Virus record (IMG/VR): IMGVR_UViG_3300020595_000157
Location: 1 to 27,516 of that record
Source: a virus
Strand: one strand, 5' to 3'
Length of the DNA stretch: 27,516 nt
Position 1 is the first letter of the stretch. Each line of letters opens with the position of its first letter. Positions 5,964 to 27,492 of this stretch are shown piece by piece. The position numbers were made by a program, and so were the translations under genes. The notes beneath the pieces are model-generated. The model had not been told where the DNA came from and searched no databases. It saw only the letters and a program-made list of their open reading frames with translations.

Positions 5964-8900
5964 TTAAAAAAGTTTTATTTCGTTACCGTTTTCGTCAACG
6001 AGTCCTGAAGGACTTGAATCTTTCTGTATGTCTCTTTTTGCAGATGTATCTGCGTCTGCATCTTCTGCTACTTTGTATACTGAACATTGTTCGCAGAACT
6101 TAGCCATAAATTCATACAGTTTTGTTATATATGCAGGTTCTCCTGGGTTATTAGAACTCTTACCTCTAACTGTTTTACAAGGAGTCCACTTAGAGACTTT
6201 TGTATTTGAGATTGCTGTTCGAGGGGGAACATCTCCTGATCCGATAGCAGCTGTAGAAGTATAAAATCGTCTTTTTAATTGACCTGCTTCGTATCTTATT
6301 ACTGCTACTGTAACACCTTTACCATATGTACTAGTAGGTGTCCATACCTCAAATCCTCCAGACTTCCATCTCTCGTTACAAGAGGGCTTCTTAATACCTT
6401 TTGCAATTGCTTTTGGATCTTCAGTGTCGTCACAATTAGCCATACAAGGCTCATTGATTGCATTGTTAAATAAGTAATTAATTAACTCTAGCTTTATAAG
6501 ATCTGTGCGATCCATCTTAACTCCTGATCTTAGCTTAAATAAAAGTTTACTTCCTTCATTTGCAGAACATGTCATTGCTGCTAGTCTTACGTCTTCAAAG
6601 GTAGTATAGTTACCTAGTCCTGTAGGGGTACAGTATACGTCTTCAATGATAGGATCATCTATAATAACAACATCATCATCGTCTCCACCGTCGTCACCTT
6701 CTGGGCAGTTTCCAAGAATAACACATTCTGCTTCTGGGGGACCTCCACAATCTCCATTAGGACATGGGTCTACTGGAGGCTCTAAACAGTCAGGATTAGT
6801 TGGATCTGGACATTCAGGTTGTACACAATCTGGTAGTATATTACCATTAACGTCTTCACATTCGTCAGGTCCTGGATCATCTATACATTCTTCATCACTG
6901 GGGTCGCAACAGTACTCACATCTACTTTGTAAACATACATCTACTGTTGGATCATAGTTACATGCTAATGGGTCACAACATCCTTCTGTAGTATCGTTAA
7001 ACTCATCACAATTTCTAAATCCAGGTAATCCTGAAGCTTCTGCAGTATCACAGTCTTCACATCCTTCAGCATTTTCATTTTGATCACATTCAGACTGATC
7101 ACTATAATCGCAAATACCTGTATCAAATGTTGCAGTAGGATCGTAATTAGTTGCATTTTCATCTGTACACCCACCTATTTGATCGCCGCAATCTTCTGGG
7201 TTTGTTTGATCATTACATGGAGTTGGGCAATCTGTAAAATTAAAGGTACTACCAACAGTTGCAAAAGAAATAGAATCAAAGTTTGCTACTAATACACTTG
7301 TGCAGTCTGTGTCTTGTACCATGGCAAAAGAAGGTATAAGCATTACTGCATAATACCCTGCATCTAATATAGTTCCTGTTGTAAGAAGCGGTTGTCCTGC
7401 AGCGTCAAATCCTAAGAAACCCCCAATATTAACACCAGCATTAGTTGTAACAAAAATTGTTTCTGTTCTTGTGGTATCTGTTATCTGTTCGTTTTGATTG
7501 CTGCTGAACAAATCTAAAAGATTTGTTACTGCTGCTCCTGCGTTACCATTAATTACTTGACAGTAGCCCATTACAAACGTACCTGCTATTGTTGCATCCT
7601 CTCCTCCTCCTGTTATATCATTTATGAAGGTATCTACAGTAATAGATCCTACTCCTGTATCTACAAGTACAGTTGTAGTTGTATTCGTATCTTCATCTAG
7701 TGTTTCTACTACACAATCAATAACTGTATTTACTGTGCTAATTTGAGTAATTTTACCTGAAAGGTATACATCATCACAATCTACATACTCACAAGTTCCA
7801 TCATCTACCTCAGCATCTGCATTATAATTTGTTGCGTCAGGATCCGTACATCCTACTACTAGGGGTGGACAATCCGTTCCGTCGCCCAAGCCTACTGTAA
7901 CAGTAGGTAGTGATATCATAGGACATGGTACAGGCTCACCTGAATAGTAATCTTCTTGGAAAGAAAATGCACTTAATTGATTTATAACTACAGTATATAG
8001 ACCAGCAGTTAAATTAGTAAATACTAAATTTAATTGTCCAGAAGATGCAGGGTTAAATCCTACAGCAGCATAATCGTCATAGGATTGAAAACTGTAATAC
8101 ATTCCTTCTTCAGCAACAGGCGTTGTTCCGTCCCATGAACCTTCAATTAGCCACATTTCAAATTGGAATAACTCATCCCCAAATACAAATGCATACTGAT
8201 CTGCGTTGTCCGCTCCAGTATAAGCTCCAAATACGTCTACTGTTAATGTTCCTACAAATGTTTGATTTCCGGTTCCATCATTAAGAGGAATACAATCTGA
8301 AGTAGCAGTTTGAGTACAAGCATCAATAAAGTTTTCACAGTTAAAAGGATCTGGAACGGGTAAGCAGTATCCAGCAGATTCTGCATCAGAATTTCTTTTT
8401 ATTCTACTTCCAGCACCTGATACACATTGATCAAAGATATTGTATCCTGCTGGAAATGTACTTGTTCCGCTCCATACATAATCAGTAATTAAATCTCCTA
8501 TGTAATTAGGGGAATCTGGAAGATCACAACCACAAAAAGTAACCCAGAAATTATATGGAACTCTTAATTGAATATTACATGATAATTCGTCAGCAGTAGC
8601 GGCATCAATATACCCGTTAAACAAAAGACCTATGTCAATATTTAATACAACTAAGTATTGTTTACCAGGAGCAAGAAACGTTTGACCAAATCCATCTGTG
8701 AGAGGCGATAACAATTGTGTTGTGGATTCTCCATCTATTGTTTGAGTAACGTTCAATCCATTAAAATAACTTGCTTCAAGTGTAGCATTACCTGCAACAG
8801 CGGGGCCACCAACCCCAATTGTAACTGAACTATCATAAGAAGCAAATCTAGCTTGTAGTGGGTTTGTAGATTGGTTAGTCATGCTTCCTATAGAAACAGT

Positions 8901-11900
8901 ACTAGCTCCATCTGTTAAATAACTTGCTTCAAAGTCATCTTGTGTATAAAGTGTTGCGTAATCACTATTCTCTCCATTCCACTTTTCTATATCGTAGAAA
9001 GATAAAGTAAATATATTAGTAGCATCTGCTCCAGCTTGCTCTATTAAAGTAGTAAGCAAAGATTCTAAATTATCATTTGGATAGTTAGCAGATTGGTAAG
9101 GAGCAAAATCAAATTCAAATCTAAAATTTGTATATATGTTAGCCTCCTCCCCAAAATCATCTCCGTAGGGAACAGCTACAGATCCATCAGCTGCTACTGC
9201 AGCATTAAGTCCATAGCCCCAGTAATTATGAGCGTTACCTATTTGTCCTTGGTACCACTCTATTTGAGATATAAAACTGGATAATCCAAATGGTATGTTT
9301 GAACCAGTAATTGGAGCTTGTGGGAATATTTGAATATTAGAAATACCTGAGCTAAGAAACTCTCCATATGCGCTATTTAATGGATCATCTTCATCACAGT
9401 ACTGACAACTACCATCATCTACATCAGCTTTAGGATTATAATTAATTGCATTGGGATCTGTGCATCCAGGCGTAGGTTCTTGAACACCTCCTCCTTCTAC
9501 GACTTGTACACCAAGTGAGACGAAGTCAAATGTTTGGGGAGAGAATTCAACAGCTGTTGATGAATATTCAAATGGGGGCTCTAGACCAAGTTGATAAGAT
9601 GTTTCACCTGCTCTTTGCCCTAATTGTATTTTAGATGTTGGGGCAAAAGTTTCATCCCATTGAAAACTGCTTAAGTTTACGTCTACAAGAGGCCTGTCTA
9701 CACTTAATGGAGTTTGATTATCTAAATTAACAGTAAGTGTTAGAGGATGATTATTATCAGTATCAACGCTTGAATCGTCTGCTGTTACTTGTGTTCCTAT
9801 CGAGTACGTATCATCGTTGATGGGAAATAAAATTGGATCTATTTCATGTCTCCCGGGTGTGTACTTTATTGCAAATATGTTTAAAGCATTTGCGTCTACA
9901 TTCAAATTAGATGCATTTTCCCACTCTACTTTAGTGGGGAGGGAATTGCATCCACAATCTGCTAAAAACTCTAAAGTAGGAATTATGCTAGATGAAACAA
10001 TATTACCTACTCCTGCATCATATTTAGCTTTAAATTGTAACTCTGTAACATTTGTAGTAACCTCACTTAGTCCTGGAGTTATTAATAAGTCCAGCTGATA
10101 GTTACTTGAAATTGAATCTTCTATAATAAGCTCACGTCCTCTTTTTAAATTTAAACATCCTCGTAGATATACAAATCTATTATCTGAAGAGGTGGCTCCG
10201 GGTCTCCATCTTAAGCCTTGAGTAACTATTCCTTTTGCTGCAGCATGGGATATATCAGTATAATAATTTGATTCTTGTAGGCTGTTCCAAAATGTCGAAA
10301 GAGCAGGATTTGTTGCTTGTAAAATTTGTAAAGTATAGGAATCGACGCCTACTGGTTCGTTTAAGTTACCATTAGTCCATTTTACAGAGTTTTTATCTAA
10401 ACTTGGCAGGTCTAAAGAATCGCTTGGAAGAAGAGCCGTGTTAGGAGTTACATTATTTTTGACTGGTGTGTATACTGTAAGTATATTCGCTATTTGAGAA
10501 CTTGATACATTAACTACCTGTACTTTGGTATTATCAGTACCTTCCGGAAATTGAGATTGAAACAAAGAAGTAGATAAACTAGCAACTGGTCCAGCTTGAC
10601 CTGTAAGACTTCCAATAAATGCATCTTGCGCAGGTACGCCCCCCTCTAAGCCTGCAGTTCCCATTACTGAGCTATCCGTAAAATTATTACCAGCTTGAAT
10701 TGTATTACAACTTATATTTTGAAAAGAATCTACATATATATGATAAGGAACAGCTGTAATATATTTAGGGTCCTCTCCTACATTATCTATAGCTAGCCCA
10801 TTAACAGTTGATTGTGCAAAATCGCTACTACCATCCCTAGGAGTAAAGTTTGGATGTTGTGCTTTTTTAAATAAAGAGGCAGCTAAAGATGACTGATAAG
10901 TACTTTGAGCGCTATCAACTCCTGCTCCTAAATGATGTGGTCTAGATAAAAAGAAAGTATGTTGCCCAAATATAAAGTTACTTATTAAGTCTTGAGGAGA
11001 CATTAAATTACACATCAATTGATTACCAGCTGAACTCTCATAGCCCGGAGGCAACCAAGCCCCCTGACTATATCCTCCTAAAGATTGATTGATGCTTTGT
11101 GCTTCAGCTCCTTCTAAAAGTTTAATAGCTATGTCACGTAACAAATTGTTCGCTGTGTCATACCCGCCATCTACAGCAGCAAACCCTGCACCCGAAAAAT
11201 TTGTATTATTTTGTTTTTTTATTCCAAAAACAATACCATCCATTCGTCTAGAGGTATCAGTATTACTACGAACATTAGGACTATTTTTTAAATAAAACGC
11301 GTTTACTAGACTTTTACTAGGTACTCCATCAGAAGTATATTGACCTGCATATCCCCTAGCTCCTCCGTATAAAGTCCCGGCTAAACTTTTTTCTTTTATA
11401 TTCAAAAGGTTAGGATTAAAAAGATCGCTGGGGTCAGACACTATTTGCCCAGTTGCAGTTATTGAAGGGCATACAGTATTAAAAAACTCTATACTTTTAT
11501 AACCATCTCGGCCTGCAGTAGCTCCGAACTGAATTAAATTAGTGCTTATTGATTGTAAGCCGTCAAGAGTCTCGTTATATAAACTACCTCCTACAATTCC
11601 AGTAGAAGAATCATAGCTGTAATCAGTAGTAGAAGCGATTTGTCTAAATTCCCATAAAGCACTTCGTGTACCTATAGTATAATTATTCCCATCCTGTCCA
11701 GTAACTATTGTTGAGTTCCCAGCCCCGTATGGTAATATTTCATTATTAATATATATGGTTTGATAATAATCTCTAGTCTGAGGCGCTTCTATATTTCCCC
11801 ACTTGGGATCTGTATAAGCTGCTGTATGAAATACAATAGGATCGCTACCTCCTGGATTATTGTTAATTCCTATACCACTTCTTAAGGGTACTCCTCCTCC

Positions 11901-12410
11901 TGATTGAAGTGGTGCACTTCCTGTTTCGTTGGAGGTAAATACTTGGTCAAAGTTTAAACTAATGTCTTCTAAACACTCACTATGTATAACTGGCTGTTTT
12001 ACAGAGTGGTAATCTCCATCTTCAAATAGTACTTTAAATTCTATTTCTCGGGCTACATCATCTTGAAATGCTTCTTGATTATAAATAATGCTTATTATTT
12101 TATGCCCGTCCTCAAGATAGTTGTATCTGATTTTATCAATATATGTACTAATATTGCTTTCAGACAATAAGACAATATCTCCTGTATGGTAATTATGTAT
12201 TTTAGAAGGCACAACACCCATAACTTCTTGAAAGAACCCTTCCTCGAAACGATACTTGTCCCCGTCATATGTTACGTCCTTTCCTCCGTTATGACTGTTA
12301 AGTATTTTAAATGGGCAAAATACACTAGTACTTGCAGCAGCATTATTGCTAGCAGCATTTATATCAGTTAATGTGGGTACTACCACATAATGTTTACCTC
12401 CTTTATTCAT
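5964..12410 (-). CDS. Giant (2148 aa) multidomain virion protein, probable host-contact tail/fibre protein
   Basis: The largest gene, over 6.4 kb. The first 170 residues (MNKGGKHYVVVPTLTDINAA) look like a compact attachment domain; about 170-970 is beta-rich and Asn/Ser/Gly-rich. Four Cys/Asp repeats of the GCTDP-x-A-x-NY-x-P-x-A-x-x-DDGSC type lie at about residues 981, 1520, 1745 and 1810; the last two are degenerate (DTGIC; GCCDPLACNYDP). Beta-sandwich-like blocks separate them. Residues 1770-1930 are a Cys/Pro/Asp-rich linker. The last 230 residues form a compact, more basic domain (ANEGSKLLFKLRSG, then FEVWTPTSTYGKGVTVAVIR). No catalytic motif is seen. It lies between the Cys-rich 154-aa gene and the fibre. 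The repeat is characteristic of Bacteroidota secreted proteins, so I infer surface contact with such a host. A tape measure is unlikely because long helices are absent. Confidence 0.8.
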   Translation of the reverse strand: MNKGGKHYVVVPTLTDINAASNNAAASTSVFCPFKILNSHNGGKDVTYDGDKYRFEEGFFQEVMGVVPSKIHNYHTGDIVLLSESNISTYIDKIRYNYLEDGHKIISIIYNQEAFQDDVAREIEFKVLFEDGDYHSVKQPVIHSECLEDISLNFDQVFTSNETGSAPLQSGGGVPLRSGIGINNNPGGSDPIVFHTAAYTDPKWGNIEAPQTRDYYQTIYINNEILPYGAGNSTIVTGQDGNNYTIGTRSALWEFRQIASTTDYSYDSSTGIVGGSLYNETLDGLQSISTNLIQFGATAGRDGYKSIEFFNTVCPSITATGQIVSDPSDLFNPNLLNIKEKSLAGTLYGGARGYAGQYTSDGVPSKSLVNAFYLKNSPNVRSNTDTSRRMDGIVFGIKKQNNTNFSGAGFAAVDGGYDTANNLLRDIAIKLLEGAEAQSINQSLGGYSQGAWLPPGYESSAGNQLMCNLMSPQDLISNFIFGQHTFFLSRPHHLGAGVDSAQSTYQSSLAASLFKKAQHPNFTPRDGSSDFAQSTVNGLAIDNVGEDPKYITAVPYHIYVDSFQNISCNTIQAGNNFTDSSVMGTAGLEGGVPAQDAFIGSLTGQAGPVASLSTSLFQSQFPEGTDNTKVQVVNVSSSQIANILTVYTPVKNNVTPNTALLPSDSLDLPSLDKNSVKWTNGNLNEPVGVDSYTLQILQATNPALSTFWNSLQESNYYTDISHAAAKGIVTQGLRWRPGATSSDNRFVYLRGCLNLKRGRELIIEDSISSNYQLDLLITPGLSEVTTNVTELQFKAKYDAGVGNIVSSSIIPTLEFLADCGCNSLPTKVEWENASNLNVDANALNIFAIKYTPGRHEIDPILFPINDDTYSIGTQVTADDSSVDTDNNHPLTLTVNLDNQTPLSVDRPLVDVNLSSFQWDETFAPTSKIQLGQRAGETSYQLGLEPPFEYSSTAVEFSPQTFDFVSLGVQVVEGGGVQEPTPGCTDPNAINYNPKADVDDGSCQYCDEDDPLNSAYGEFLSSGISNIQIFPQAPITGSNIPFGLSSFISQIEWYQGQIGNAHNYWGYGLNAAVAADGSVAVPYGDDFGEEANIYTNFRFEFDFAPYQSANYPNDNLESLLTTLIEQAGADATNIFTLSFYDIEKWNGENSDYATLYTQDDFEASYLTDGASTVSIGSMTNQSTNPLQARFASYDSSVTIGVGGPAVAGNATLEASYFNGLNVTQTIDGESTTQLLSPLTDGFGQTFLAPGKQYLVVLNIDIGLLFNGYIDAATADELSCNIQLRVPYNFWVTFCGCDLPDSPNYIGDLITDYVWSGTSTFPAGYNIFDQCVSGAGSRIKRNSDAESAGYCLPVPDPFNCENFIDACTQTATSDCIPLNDGTGNQTFVGTLTVDVFGAYTGADNADQYAFVFGDELFQFEMWLIEGSWDGTTPVAEEGMYYSFQSYDDYAAVGFNPASSGQLNLVFTNLTAGLYTVVINQLSAFSFQEDYYSGEPVPCPMISLPTVTVGLGDGTDCPPLVVGCTDPDATNYNADAEVDDGTCEYVDCDDVYLSGKITQISTVNTVIDCVVETLDEDTNTTTTVLVDTGVGSITVDTFINDITGGGEDATIAGTFVMGYCQVINGNAGAAVTNLLDLFSSNQNEQITDTTRTETIFVTTNAGVNIGGFLGFDAAGQPLLTTGTILDAGYYAVMLIPSFAMVQDTDCTSVLVANFDSISFATVGSTFNFTDCPTPCNDQTNPEDCGDQIGGCTDENATNYDPTATFDTGICDYSDQSECDQNENAEGCEDCDTAEASGLPGFRNCDEFNDTTEGCCDPLACNYDPTVDVCLQSRCEYCCDPSDEECIDDPGPDECEDVNGNILPDCVQPECPDPTNPDCLEPPVDPCPNGDCGGPPEAECVILGNCPEGDDGGDDDDVVIIDDPIIEDVYCTPTGLGNYTTFEDVRLAAMTCSANEGSKLLFKLRSGVKMDRTDLIKLELINYLFNNAINEPCMANCDDTEDPKAIAKGIKKPSCNERWKSGGFEVWTPTSTYGKGVTVAVIRYEAGQLKRRFYTSTAAIGSGDVPPRTAISNTKVSKWTPCKTVRGKSSNNPGEPAYITKLYEFMAKFCEQCSVYKVAEDADADTSAKRDIQKDSSPSGLVDENGNEIKLF
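6908..6983 (-). repeat. GCTDP/DDGSC-type repeat 4 inside the giant protein, degenerate
   Basis: Codes for GCCDPLACNYDPTVDVC and continues to CEYCC, the fourth and most divergent copy; the DDGSC end is replaced by a Cys-rich variant with Gln, Ser and Arg. Located at about residues 1810-1835, inside the Cys/Pro/Asp-rich linker. Confidence 0.65.
7100..7173 (-). repeat. GCTDP/DDGSC-type repeat 3 inside the giant protein
   Basis: Codes for GCTDENATNYDPTATFDTG and then ICDY, with DTGIC replacing DDGSC. At about residues 1745-1770, directly before the Cys-rich linker. Confidence 0.75.
7780..7853 (-). repeat. GCTDP/DDGSC-type repeat 2 inside the giant protein
   Basis: Codes for GCTDPDATNYNADAEVDDG and then TCEY, a near-consensus copy at about residues 1520-1545, between two beta-rich blocks. 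The Asp-rich end resembles calcium-binding thrombospondin type 3-like loops; that comparison is inference. Confidence 0.85.
9397..9468 (-). repeat. GCTDP/DDGSC-type repeat 1 inside the giant protein
   Basis: Codes for GCTDPNAINYNPKADVDDG and then SCQYC, the copy closest to the consensus seen in marine Bacteroidota secreted proteins. At about residues 981-1006, marking the boundary between the N-terminal 970-residue part and the repeat-separated C-terminal blocks. Confidence 0.87.
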
Positions 12411-12885: not shown

Positions 12886-12901
12886 GGTTAAAAGTATTAA
12901 A

Positions 12902-12923
12902 GGGGGTACCCAATTGTACCCCC
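12902..12923 (-). terminator. Perfect GC-rich stem-loop after the 372-aa structural gene
   Basis: On the coding strand GGGGGTAC, a six-base loop AATTGG, then GTACCCCC: a perfect 8-bp stem followed by TTTAATACTTTT. It lies 22 bases after the stop of the 372-aa gene and 17 bases before the ATG of the 154-aa gene. It has the form of an intrinsic terminator with a poor T-tract, so a partial terminator or mRNA-stabilising hairpin is likely. Confidence 0.75.
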
Positions 12924-12944
12924 AGTAATTTTATAGATTAGTTA

Positions 12945-16088: not shown

Positions 16089-16104
16089 GTTCTTTTAAGT
16101 TTAG

Positions 16105-16142
16105 AAAGAATAACTAAGTTGTTCTTTAGTCAAAGAATAACT
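16105..16142 (-). repeat. 11-base direct repeat flanking a small palindrome
   Basis: In the gap after the capsid gene, aaagaataact occurs at 16105-16115 and again at 16132-16142 (+ strand). Between and overlapping them is the inverted repeat ttcttt-agtc-aaagaa at 16122-16137. This 5' leader of the 268-aa gene could be a processing site or a protein-binding site; it may also be chance in AT-rich DNA. Confidence 0.45.
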
Positions 16143-16166
16143 CAATTGTGTGGTTTTACAATAGTT

Positions 16167-16210
16167 GGTTGCAAGCAGGGGGACAGTTACCCATCCCCCC
16201 TATGCAAACC
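16167..16210 (-). terminator. Large stem-loop after the major capsid gene
   Basis: On the coding strand GGTTTGCA, TA, GGGGGGA, loop TGGGTAACTG, then TCCCCC, TGCT, TGCAACC. The inner arm pairs GGGGGA with TCCCCC and the outer arm pairs GGTT/GCA with TGC/AACC around small bulges. It begins 10 bases after the capsid stop codon. No run of T follows, so it is more likely a partial terminator or a 3' mRNA-stabilising structure for the capsid message than a full intrinsic terminator. Confidence 0.6.
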
Positions 16211-22687: not shown

Positions 22688-24640
22688 TTACTTATAAATT
22701 TGATTAAACCAATCGTCTGCTGATCTATCTGTTAAAATTTCTACCACCTCTCTATTATATAACTCTCGCGTATGGTACATCCCTACCATAAACGACATAA
22801 CTCTATCAAAGTTGCCTTTGTGATTAAACTTGATTAACTCTTGTAGTAGCCCGGCATCATAGATTTTGTGCAGGTTTAAAGTTACATTCCCATCTTCATC
22901 TGTATGCCTAGGAGTAATTAACCAATCTCTTATATAAAGTTCTCCTTGGCGTTTTCTTTGCTCAGTCATGTGCATACCATACTGGCGTTTCACGTTCCTG
23001 GATCGTAATTCTTTTTTATCCAACATTTCAAACTCTTCCTGTAGCTTATGTAGCTTGCGATATCTTTTCGCATAAGCAATAAGCTCTCCACGGTCGTTCT
23101 CGAATCCAATTTTGGCGTTGTAGTGTTCAGCCAACATAAATAGATTCCGGTTGTATTCATCTTGTGTCTTAGGTCTTCCAACATAGCTAGCTACAATTAT
23201 ATCATCAGGTTTTGATAGGTTATTAGGTCGTTTGATTACATATGCAGACCCAAGAGATTCGTTTGAAACGGACTTGGATTGAGCGTATGGATCATGGCAT
23301 ACAATATACAAATTATGTGGCACTTCTCCCTCTTGTGTTGTATAAGGTGATTCATATATAACTATAGCACCTTCTATTTTGTCCCCTTTCCTATGTGGAA
23401 ACTTGTATATAGGTGTTACATCTGCGGAAGGTCGGAAAGAACTCTTCCCATCTTTGTCGTAGTACATGATTCCGGCTGTTCCTTCGGAGTCAAGCCCATG
23501 AACCTTAATCTTGTTATACTGTTCTTTAAGAGAAGTAACATCGAAGAGATTTGCAGTGACTTGTAACGTCGCCTCCTGTGGAGTAAACGGGTGCTCCGCT
23601 GTATACTGGTCCAATGCTTTTGGATCATTTGCCCCTTTTTTCTTTTCCCTCTGTATTTCTTCATGTGCTTGTGCTTCTGCTTTTAAAGAATTACCATTAT
23701 CATCTATAAAGCCATCTAAGTTTTGTTGTATTGGGACAAAGTACCCACATTGTGTACCCATTGCTCCTGGATCCCAAGTATTTTCAAAAGCTAGGCAATC
23801 ATAGGAATCCGGATGATAAAAAAGTTCATCCATTCCTTCGAATCCTGAACCTTCTTCCCCACCTGTACCAAAAGCTACCATAGTGCCTAGAGTTTTTGAA
23901 CCTTGACGCATTGTAGGCATAGCAACTTCCCATGCTTTAAGCAATCCCCCAAAAGAACCCGCTTCCTCAAAGAATATTAGATCACCAGCTTTACCACGGA
24001 CCTTATCAGGGTTATCTTTAAGAGAAACACCCATTATTTGAGACTTCATCCCAAGTTCTACGTCTGCCCCGTTTACATTCTTTTTGTAACCGGCCATTTT
24101 AGACATTTCTCTATCTCGCAGCCGAGGCTGAGTCCAGGCAGTGTTGTCATCAATAAAACTTAAAAACTCCCAAGCCTTAGAAAGCAAACCGTCCCCAATT
24201 AAATATTCTTTTTGAGATGCAAAAACGTAGTTTTTACTATTACGTACGTGAAAATAGTTGCGGGCTAACATAGCTCCTGCTTTATATGAGAAACCTTTAC
24301 GTCTAGCTTTAAGCACAACCATATGTTTATTTTCTCTACGAGCTTTGTCTATAGCGTGAAAGTATTCATGGTCTCCGTCGTAAAATGCCGGGAATGTTCT
24401 TTCTCTTCGTGCAATCTTTGTCCCGTCTTTTAGTATATCGTCTACTACTCTATCTATTGGGCAGAAGTTTAAATAGAAGTAGTGATACCCTGTTATATCT
24501 AAGTATCCTTCTAAGCATCTGTCTTTTTGTGTGTCCCAATACTCATAGAATTCTCTTGTGCCTGGGATAGCGTCAGTGTAGAAACCTTTCTCCAAGTAAT
24601 GTAAAGCAGCCGGCAGGTATTTATCACTGTTCTTAAACAT
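22688..24640 (-). CDS. terL: Terminase large subunit (TerL)
   Basis: 650 aa with both terminase domains. ATPase: HMVVLKARRKGFSYKAGAML, with the Walker A-like KARRKGFSYK at 111-120; Walker B LIFFEEAG at 221-228 (E225/E226); coupling motif AFGTGG near 256-261. Nuclease (RNase H-like): first acid in VCHDPYAQ (D450), second block IGFENDRGELIAY (E514, D516), third acid in FDRVMSFMVG (D612). It pumps DNA into the prohead through the portal and cuts the concatemer. It shares one base with the 165-aa gene upstream (TAATG) and precedes the portal by 11 bases. The Walker A lysine/serine pattern is of the R-rich phage type, not the textbook GxxxxGK. Confidence 0.93.
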   Translation of the reverse strand: MFKNSDKYLPAALHYLEKGFYTDAIPGTREFYEYWDTQKDRCLEGYLDITGYHYFYLNFCPIDRVVDDILKDGTKIARRERTFPAFYDGDHEYFHAIDKARRENKHMVVLKARRKGFSYKAGAMLARNYFHVRNSKNYVFASQKEYLIGDGLLSKAWEFLSFIDDNTAWTQPRLRDREMSKMAGYKKNVNGADVELGMKSQIMGVSLKDNPDKVRGKAGDLIFFEEAGSFGGLLKAWEVAMPTMRQGSKTLGTMVAFGTGGEEGSGFEGMDELFYHPDSYDCLAFENTWDPGAMGTQCGYFVPIQQNLDGFIDDNGNSLKAEAQAHEEIQREKKKGANDPKALDQYTAEHPFTPQEATLQVTANLFDVTSLKEQYNKIKVHGLDSEGTAGIMYYDKDGKSSFRPSADVTPIYKFPHRKGDKIEGAIVIYESPYTTQEGEVPHNLYIVCHDPYAQSKSVSNESLGSAYVIKRPNNLSKPDDIIVASYVGRPKTQDEYNRNLFMLAEHYNAKIGFENDRGELIAYAKRYRKLHKLQEEFEMLDKKELRSRNVKRQYGMHMTEQRKRQGELYIRDWLITPRHTDEDGNVTLNLHKIYDAGLLQELIKFNHKGNFDRVMSFMVGMYHTRELYNREVVEILTDRSADDWFNQIYK

Positions 24641-26029: not shown

Positions 26030-26261
26030 CTCTGATTACTATTTTAACTTTCCCATCGTCGAGGTTTATTCTAGACTTGGTAGATTGTCTGTTAAACTCG
26101 TCTACGTATTCTTTAATGTGTTCTCTTGTGCACAAGAATGATAGAAATACTTCTATCTCTCTAGCGGCTCTCTTAAGGTTATCGTTTTTGCTTTGTGCTA
26201 TTTCTTTTGCACCTCTAAGCTGGTCAAAGAGAGTAATAGGTATTGTTACTGTCCCATCCAT
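26022..26261 (-). CDS. Small helical protein, function unknown
   Basis: 79 aa, starting MDGTVTIPITLFDQLRGAKE. A short beta start (TVTIPITLFDQL) resembles the beginning of some phage coiled-coil proteins, followed by a charged helix (NDNLKRAAREIEVFLSFLCT) and a basic C-terminus (SRINLDDGKVKIVIRDE). Its ATG shares one base with the GroES stop (TAATG) and its end overlaps the winged-helix gene by 8 bases, so all three are likely one translation unit. It could be a partner of either neighbour. I recognise no family. Confidence 0.65.
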   Translation of the reverse strand: MDGTVTIPITLFDQLRGAKEIAQSKNDNLKRAAREIEVFLSFLCTREHIKEYVDEFNRQSTKSRINLDDGKVKIVIRDE

Positions 26262-26539
26262 TACTTAGGAATAACCCCACAAACAGAAAACTCATTGACC
26301 ATCACGCACTCTGTGCTATCGATAGTGACAATGAGTCCTTCAGTATTGGGGTGTACCATAACGGTATCATCAGTCTTTACCATCAGGCATTCTGGTCCGG
26401 CAGCGAGTACCTTAAGAATGTTTGACTGCAAAGATTTCTTAGCTGAGTCCGGGAGAATAATACCTGCATCAGTTTCGTCCTTCTTTACTAAAGGTAGAAC
26501 AATCCAATCACGGGTAGGGAGAAAGTTTAATTTTGCCAT
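26261..26539 (-). CDS. groES-like: Phage GroES-like co-chaperonin
   Basis: 92 aa with the GroES pattern along its length: LPTRDWIVLPL (7-17, equal to the P-x-D-R-V-x-V strand), the mobile loop KDETDAGIILPDSAKKSLQS (20-39) with hydrophobic tripeptide IIL at 27-29 that docks into GroEL, then KVLAAGPE, KTDDTVMVHPNTEG and the end VCGVIPK, matching the usual ILAVI finish. GroES caps GroEL and closes the folding chamber. Phage versions (T4 gp31 and others) let host GroEL fold capsid protein. There is no GroEL here, so it must use the host's. A promoter-like pair lies directly upstream; the stop overlaps the next ATG (TAATG). Confidence 0.9.
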   Translation of the reverse strand: MAKLNFLPTRDWIVLPLVKKDETDAGIILPDSAKKSLQSNILKVLAAGPECLMVKTDDTVMVHPNTEGLIVTIDSTECVMVNEFSVCGVIPK

Positions 26540-26600: not shown

Positions 26601-27080
26601 TTATTTCATAATTGTAAAGTCGGTGTACTTGATCGTTACGTCCTCTTGTCCTTCGTCTAGTACTGCAGCAATTTTTGGGTACACATTAAAGTAAGCTTCT
26701 GTACTGTTACCTATAAATCCATTAGTCTTAACATTGTTGTTTACTTGCGAGTTACCCAGTAGTAAACATCCTGCAGTGTGTTCGTCAGTATTGCCACAAT
26801 GGATGAGTATATATTTAAAGTTAGGCACATCAAGTACGTGAAGCATGCCTTTGTGTATGTCGGCAAACCTTTTAGAGTATTTGGTGTGATGTCCACCCAC
26901 AGTCCTAAGACCGATGCAATACTCTCCTTCAGGTATACAAGTTTCTCCCCATACTTTTTCTTCTCTACTTTCATCTTCTAATGTGTAGCATAAAAATTTT
27001 CGTTCACCATTTGATATATCAAAGAGAATACCATTAGTAGAATCTATTCCGTAATTAAATCTTAGGACTTCTAATTTCAT
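26601..27080 (-). CDS. DUF5675 family protein, possible cell-wall enzyme
   Basis: 159 aa. Blocks in order: FLCYTLEDESREEKVWGETC (29-48), IPEGEYCIGLRT (49-60), GMLHVLDVPNFKYILIHCGN (78-97) and TAGCLLLG (102-109). The H-C-G-N ... H-T-A-G-C arrangement (H94, C105) recalls the HG ... S-x-GC active site of YkuD L,D-transpeptidases; these families may be related and the Cys may be catalytic. I recall DUF5675 as widespread in phages and Bacteroidota. A murein-acting role would make it a candidate lysis or entry enzyme, but this is inferred. There is no signal peptide. It follows the structured RNA region, whose 3' hairpin ends 16 bases before its ATG. Confidence 0.75.
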   Translation of the reverse strand: MKLEVLRFNYGIDSTNGILFDISNGERKFLCYTLEDESREEKVWGETCIPEGEYCIGLRTVGGHHTKYSKRFADIHKGMLHVLDVPNFKYILIHCGNTDEHTAGCLLLGNSQVNNNVKTNGFIGNSTEAYFNVYPKIAAVLDEGQEDVTIKYTDFTIMK

Positions 27081-27360
27081 AGTTGTATCGTAATAAAGTT
27101 ACAAAAGGATATAACTCACCCCCTTGGTTTTCAGTCAAACGTTGGATTTCCACTCGCCGTGTTTAGCCTACGTGGGGGCATTTCTATCAGCCTATAGCCT
27201 TGTCCCACCCGAGTTTTATACCAACGCACTTTTTGAAACTACCGGGGACGACTTTCACTGACTATGTTGACAGCTACTTTAACCCGATGTCTAGTCCTAT
27301 TATGATTACCTAAAGGACGGTCACTAAAGTGGTTTCGATGCAAATATAATAAAATATACT
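27081..27360 (-). ncRNA. Candidate structured RNA / long 5' leader, no gene inside
   Basis: This 280-base gap holds no plausible protein. On the coding strand it folds into one long irregular rod: 27250-27244 with 27123-27117 (7 bp, two G.U), 27243-27241 plus 27238-27235 with 27132-27126 (7 bp, 2-base bulge), 27226-27221 with 27145-27140 (6 bp), 27214-27210 with 27156-27152 (5 bp), 27208-27204 with 27176-27172 (5 bp) and a tip hairpin 27197-27194 with 27187-27184. A second domain pairs 27296-27288 with 27264-27260 and 27272-27269. The G.U pairs favour the minus strand. GC content is visibly above the flanks. A TATATTTG box lies just before it. I found no match to tRNA, tmRNA, RNase P, group I intron or hammerhead cores. 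Confidence 0.55.
27341..27348 (-). promoter_or_regulatory. Candidate promoter -7 box (TATATTTG) before the structured RNA
   Basis: TATATTTG on the coding strand, continuing GCATCG. The same TATATTTGCAT 11-mer occurs again before the 43-aa gene. A start 6-7 bases downstream would begin the transcript at about 27335, at the edge of the structured segment. No -33 TTTG is seen at the usual distance. Confidence 0.4.
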
Positions 27361-27492
27361 TTATCTTCCTTGCCCTCGATACTTTTTTTTGTAGTGCTTA
27401 GAAGTTTTGTTGTTTGAGTTTTTAGTTTTTGCGTGCACTCCAGGACGTGAAGCATCGTTTGCTACGTAAAGTTGGTGATTTGTTTTTTTCAT
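27361..27492 (-). CDS. Small basic peptide, 43 aa
   Basis: ATG at 27492-27490 to TAA at 27363-27361. Product starts MKKTNHQLYVANDASRPGVH and ends TSKHYKKKYRGQGR; about a third of residues are Lys, Arg or His and there are no hydrophobic helices. The closing KxYxGQGR block is one I have seen at the ends of short basic proteins of other phages near the packaging genes, which supports a real gene; a nucleic-acid-binding or virion role is plausible. It lies between two identical TATATTTGCAT boxes. The upstream box ends 4 bases before the ATG, so the mRNA may be leaderless. Confidence 0.65.
   Translation of the reverse strand: MKKTNHQLYVANDASRPGVHAKTKNSNNKTSKHYKKKYRGQGR

Follow-up and report, generated by a model that had tools for sequence, protein, structure and literature searches.

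The gap at positions 27097 to 27340 (minus strand) of the window, by which we mean the whole 27,516-nucleotide (nt) stretch of IMG/VR record IMGVR_UViG_3300020595_000157, codes for a structured RNA about 230 nt long. As defined by a covariance model and homologues, its conserved extent runs from helix P1 to a 3′ tail (27107 to 27337, minus strand). The RNA is probably a cis-acting leader of the late transcription block in a clade of marine crAss-like phages. It may work by antitermination specifically, a narrower claim that we regard as possible and a little short of probable because the step from anatomy to mechanism is an inference.

A conserved RNA family in a gene-free gap

An earlier note on this DNA, made from the sequence alone, had described a gene-free island with a structured RNA of no assigned class on the coding strand, preceded by a promoter box of its own, and this description was fully supported. 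No credible open reading frame (ORF) lies between the start of the DUF5675 gene (27080) and the stop of a 43-amino-acid (aa) ORF (27361), both on the minus strand. A protein-coding gap was rejected, since the sequence is not coding among the homologues, in which no stop-free frame is kept.

The search for homologues started from the neighboring DUF5675 protein, which gave 80 loci in IMG/VR. Five of these contain the gap sequence at 85 to 100% identity, and the remaining DUF5675-bearing loci yielded RNA model matches at chance level only. Exact-pattern scans with several invariant stretches, confirmed with the covariance model, identified homologues on 63 other IMG/VR contigs. The match of covariance model R1 in the window covers 27337 to 27106 with a score of 255.6 bits, and in the 18 contigs searched over the whole record there was a single strong match per record. 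The RNA was not found in 84,980 GTDB genomes with two exact patterns, blastn with two RNA members revealed no homologue among named phages, and the covariance model had no match in six crAss-like or Flavobacterium phages. That the RNA matches no class testable by eye, as the earlier note had it, agrees with cmscan, which returned no Rfam match up to an E value of 10; the RNA is absent from Rfam 15, and ARAGORN found zero tRNA or tmRNA genes in the window. Within the open-licence literature we found no description of structured RNAs of crAss-like phages, and one may exist elsewhere.

Covariation defines a pseudoknotted fold on the minus strand

The structure consists of nine nested helices and a three-pair pseudoknot, and support was obtained for all ten helices. 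In alignment A3, 98.2% of the cells are paired and 19 pairs have changed on both sides (0/500 shuffles). Alignment A5, which is the A3 set plus the variants L228 and L229, holds 44 sequences and 47 pairs; here 98.5% of the cells are paired, compared with only 40 to 49% in slid controls, and 24 pairs have changed on both sides, in 139 cells (0/500 shuffles for compensatory changes). Since A5 was fitted to the model, A3 provides the unbiased figure. When an unsupervised covariation score was run on a 42-sequence MAFFT alignment, the Watson-Crick pairs of the structure ranked top, including a long-range pair that crosses P1, and the RNA tree requires at least 52 Watson-Crick to Watson-Crick compensatory events. 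Covariation among homologues, which had been named as a check, is thus very strong and extends to the pseudoknot. The helix cells across the homologues contain 157 G.U pairs versus 7 A.C pairs; this fixes the minus strand as the RNA strand and bears out the earlier reading of the G.U pairs.

Folding energy gave a different result. A folding energy no better than that of dinucleotide shuffles had been set in advance as evidence against an RNA, and this is what we observed in the window, with z values of 0.04 on the minus strand and −0.83 on the plus strand; the mean z over 14 homologues is 0.07. Folding energy is uninformative as a test for this RNA, with z close to 0 on both strands, and a real RNA would be lost if it were the sole criterion.

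The separate 5′ domain proposed before corresponds to P1 to P5 (27235 to 27336, minus strand). It is closed by P1 (27336-27332 with 27239-27235) and encloses P2 (27331-27329/27324-27322), P3 (27318-27313/27299-27294), P4 (27288-27283/27246-27241), and P5 (27273-27269/27262-27258). Every helix of this domain shows compensatory changes, as exemplified by GAAAC/GUUUC to GAGAC/GUCUC in P1 and CUGUC/GGCAG to CUAAC/GUUAG in P5. The covariation of P5 also bears on whether the element could be the remnant of a self-splicing intron or another ribozyme. Short R/S-like motifs, ACTAGACATCGGG ... AACATAGTC, superficially resemble P7 of group I introns, but the S-like strand belongs to the covarying hairpin P5 and the R/S pairing is not conserved (GGCCTA faces TAGTC in L084 and L092). 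For this lack of a conserved P7 pairing, and with no Rfam match, a group I intron was rejected, and we consider a ribozyme remnant of any kind hardly credible.

Next to the 5′ domain lies a 3′ rod formed by P6 to P8 (27139 to 27227, minus strand). The earlier note had put this rod at about 134 bases; it does form, but its length is 89 nt. P6 (27227-27221/27145-27139) covaries in six of its seven pairs. P7 (27213-27210/27156-27153) and P8 (27208-27204/27176-27172, with an inner part at 27199-27197/27179-27177) are invariant in A3, and each gained one compensatory change with the new variants: G-C to A-U for P7 in L229 and U-A to A-U for P8 in L228. The internal loop of the rod, UAUAAAA / UGGAAAU, is near-invariant.

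The pseudoknot pairs 27252-27250 (GUC) with 27136-27134 (GAC), thereby spanning 27134 to 27252 on the minus strand and crossing P1. Its pair 27250/27136 ranks third in covariation among all column pairs (C-G in 25 sequences, U-A in 17, and unpaired in 0), and all three positions are paired in 44 of the 44 sequences. Downstream of it stands the 3′ tail, AAGGGGG..(A/G)TTATAT (27107 to 27125, minus strand), near-invariant in A3. In L229 a hairpin is inserted between the pseudoknot and the AAGGGG tail and the tail is kept, indicating that the latter is a separate conserved element. Nor is it simply a ribosome site, because it is retained where no start codon follows.

A compact pseudoknotted fold with long invariant loops would also suit a ligand-sensing riboswitch or a timing switch for the late block, and on inspection of the sequence the CCCCC of P8 and the GGGGG of the tail could pair alternatively. 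However, there is no conserved expression platform or terminator, and it is not obvious which metabolite a lytic phage would sense on entering late expression. We therefore view a switch of this kind as very unlikely.

A promoter box adjoins P1 and the RNA probably shares a transcript with the downstream genes

The motif TAnnTTTG is the −7 element of Bacteroidota promoters. A −7 box of this type, TATATTTG, is located at 27348 to 27341 on the minus strand, as the earlier note had claimed. Among 38 distinct homologous upstream sequences, 37 contain TAnnTT[TC]G (TAnnTTTG or TATATTCG), for which the chance expectation is 1.6% in 33 nt, and the end of the box nearly always lies 3 to 5 nt upstream of the first helix of the RNA. 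A TTG 19 to 22 nt upstream occurs in only 13 of the 38. With the box just before P1, transcription very probably starts at or adjoining this helix.

No conserved hairpin with a U run, as expected of a terminator, follows the RNA among the homologues. In amidase-first phages the ATG comes 0 to 4 nt past the aligned RNA end, so that a start codon can stand about 15 nt beyond the last conserved block, the AAGGGGG tail. From these two features we reasoned that RNA and mRNA are on one transcript. The earlier note had offered three readings, a cis-acting leader, an independent small RNA, and a packaging-motor RNA, and the same two features favor the first. L113, which diverges most among the members, has a possible weak terminator past the RNA, an A+U-rich hairpin with a short U run (L113:1090-1130).

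An independent RNA would be cut or terminated from the leader and act in trans, alone or as a ribonucleoprotein, on host RNA polymerase, on ribosomes, or on a phage protein. The large invariant unpaired segments and the L113 hairpin fit such an RNA, as do groES-first phages, which have no gene directly after the RNA (about 70 to 95 nt without a start) and a promoter box belonging to groES itself; in these phages it is possible. Against it stand the missing conserved terminator and the position of the RNA, which always leads the late block codirectionally, a placement that a free RNA would not need. The TROVE domain of Ro (PF05731) is absent in seven contigs, which are possibly incomplete, and was detected in a control genome; a Y RNA or YrlA acting with Ro was therefore rejected. 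Overall, we find a trans-acting RNA rather unlikely and favor the cis-acting leader over it.

A leader could instead act at the level of the mRNA, as a stable 5′ structure that keeps the lengthy late mRNA from being degraded or adjusts how the first gene is translated. Standing a few nt past the promoter box, P1 would form the 5′ end of the transcript, and the start codon of amidase-first phages comes about 15 nt after the AAGGGGG tail. Yet the RNA contains more invariant sequence than a protective structure requires, and gene-specific translation control does not apply because the first gene differs among phages and groES-first phages have the 70- to 95-nt stretch without a start. An mRNA-level function of this sort is accordingly unlikely in our estimate.

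The RNA keeps its place at the head of the late block

Judged by its proteins, the window belongs to a marine crAss-like phage, an assignment based on a large terminase with 40 to 44% identity to those of gut crAss-like phages and a capsid protein with about 30% identity to that of crAss002. The terminase gene (22688 to 24640; phrog_6681, 2.2e-128) is of the crAss type. The first gene after the RNA encodes the DUF5675 protein (26601 to 27080; PF18925, 8.8e-26), and the second gene of the block a GroES-like co-chaperonin (26261 to 26539; Cpn10, 6.4e-07); all three genes are on the minus strand.

The RNA heads a codirectional late block in G001, G002, G003, G004, G009, G014, G016, and G017, usually at the point of divergence from the replication block. 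In G002, G003, G016, and G017, the RNA is preceded directly or nearly so by opposite-strand genes of the other block, which encodes PolA, DnaB, and a DEAD helicase in G002; in G001 a few codirectional genes stand before the RNA. The nearly unbroken codirectional block that follows it in G016 measures about 48 kb. The next gene varies: Amidase_2, DUF5675, groES, a 514-aa ORF (L113), or a 1,720-aa ORF (G016). The block led by the RNA is reordered in L113, where the terminase is many genes away; in L228 the RNA directly precedes a 1,720-aa gene similar to p2148; and in L005 and L006 it has kept groES and the packaging genes as neighbors, the DUF5675 gene being divergent on the other side. A constant position with a variable next gene indicates that the RNA goes with the beginning of the late block and not with one gene or with packaging. 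Hence, what the earlier note took for the head of a packaging operon is the start of the whole late block.

This placement also weighs on a packaging-motor or virion RNA comparable to φ29 pRNA. The RNA is near the terminase gene in the window only; cmscan (E ≤ 10) gave no match to a pRNA model, the large terminase is an ordinary one of the crAss type, and the contexts in L113 and L228 show that the position tracks the start of the late block rather than packaging genes. The packaging reading is thus unsupported, and we rate it as highly improbable.

Several further features of these genomes were noticed. The DUF5675 gene has moved across the RNA in L005, L006, L093, L095, and L229, where it is divergent and adjoins two further ORFs, with the RNA directly before groES. 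A 2,148-aa protein (5964 to 12410, minus strand) carries repeated GCTDPNAxNYNPxAxVDDGSC-like motifs; its relatives differ in length and occur at several places in these genomes, including directly after the RNA in G016. In the gut crAss-like phage cr52_1, a stretch of about 348 nt (L160:589-935) at the corresponding divergence point, before the chaperonin-terminase block, is free of genes; this RNA is absent from the gap, which may hold an analogous element.

The leader may act by antitermination

Terminator-like hairpins are found inside the late block. In the window, GGGGGTACAATTGGGTACCCCC followed by TTTAATACTTTT is situated between p372 and p154 (12902 to 12923, within the hairpin region 12890 to 12940, minus strand). 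A GC hairpin with a T-rich tail is present between these genes in all seven late blocks with a readable gap, its stems changed yet still paired. Most late blocks have another strong hairpin just past the major capsid gene (16100 to 16200 in the window, minus strand). Such hairpins would be what an antiterminated transcript needs to pass.

The late genes of crAss-like phages are probably transcribed by host RNA polymerase (PMC10136315, PMC8375218). If the leader acts by antitermination, transcription would start at or adjoining P1, the RNA would fold while emerging from the host enzyme, and the folded RNA, alone or together with a protein of the phage or the host, would bind the elongating polymerase. 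The latter could then run through terminators and pause sites across the lysis, packaging, capsid, and tail genes, a stretch of tens of kilobases. Against this model, the late block contains further promoter-like boxes, one of them ahead of groES, so readthrough may be unnecessary. This RNA family is missing from gut crAss-like phages and φ14:2, whose late blocks are similar and which must therefore manage otherwise. Known antitermination RNAs are also much shorter, the put RNA being about 70 nt (PMC9378689).

Candidate protein partners were considered as well. A NusG paralogue (PF02357) is absent in six RNA-bearing contigs, with 11 of 14 control genomes positive, which also speaks against the model, and LoaP/UpxY-type antitermination was rejected in these six contigs for want of a phage-encoded paralogue. 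A very basic protein of 42 to 45 aa with a near-invariant C terminus, YRGQGR, is encoded at 27361 to 27492 (minus strand) in the window and in L112, L113, L116, and others. Of 60 RNA loci, 38 encode it upstream of the RNA. It was rejected as a dedicated RNA partner because relatives occur in the crAss-like L069, L075, L076, L077, and L080, which lack the RNA.

Comparison with known systems

The put RNA of HK022 causes readthrough by direct contact with the zinc-binding domain of the β′ subunit of RNA polymerase. It has two stem-loops and is made from the early promoters of an Enterobacteria phage, where antitermination begins just past the promoter, needs no dedicated protein factor, and extends for 10 kb or more (PMC9378689). 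The element described here is likewise a phage RNA close past a promoter, as in putL, that heads a long unit with internal terminators, but it is about 230 nt long, with nine nested helices and a pseudoknot, and belongs to the late block in marine crAss-like phages, with no known similarity in sequence to put RNA. Because the resemblance is one of position and the folds differ, we filed the RNA as a new family. It would be of a known kind, the phage leader RNA, with an unexpected place and size.

In lambda, the late leader (pR′ 6S RNA, Q/qut) is about 200 nt and lies upstream of the lysis, packaging, and structural genes, Q is bound to DNA, and a terminator stands at the end of the leader. The length and the placement before such genes are similar, whereas the element described here is conserved in the RNA structure itself and has no conserved terminator at its end, with a weak candidate only in L113. 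With φ29 pRNA (RF00044) the element shares being a structured phage RNA; it differs in matching no such model, in accompanying a crAss-type TerL (phrog_6681), and in a position unlinked to packaging genes. Orphan structured RNA motifs from comparative genomics (PMC2864571) are similarly defined by covariation and conserved context, while this RNA has been seen only in IMG/VR contigs of crAss-like phages and not in Rfam 15.

On how crAss-like phages direct host RNA polymerase to their late genes, the literature goes no further than the likely use of this enzyme. The conserved RNA at the start of the late block offers a concrete, small, and testable element for that switch. We tentatively suggest, as one possibility, a new class of processive antitermination RNA, several times the size of put RNA and pseudoknotted, that makes host RNA polymerase terminator resistant over the whole 30- to 48-kb late block of crAss-like phages of marine Bacteroidota. 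If the RNA does act on the polymerase, it would be the first antiterminator of Bacteroidota phages, to our knowledge, to be based on RNA, and would provide a large new fold for structural work.
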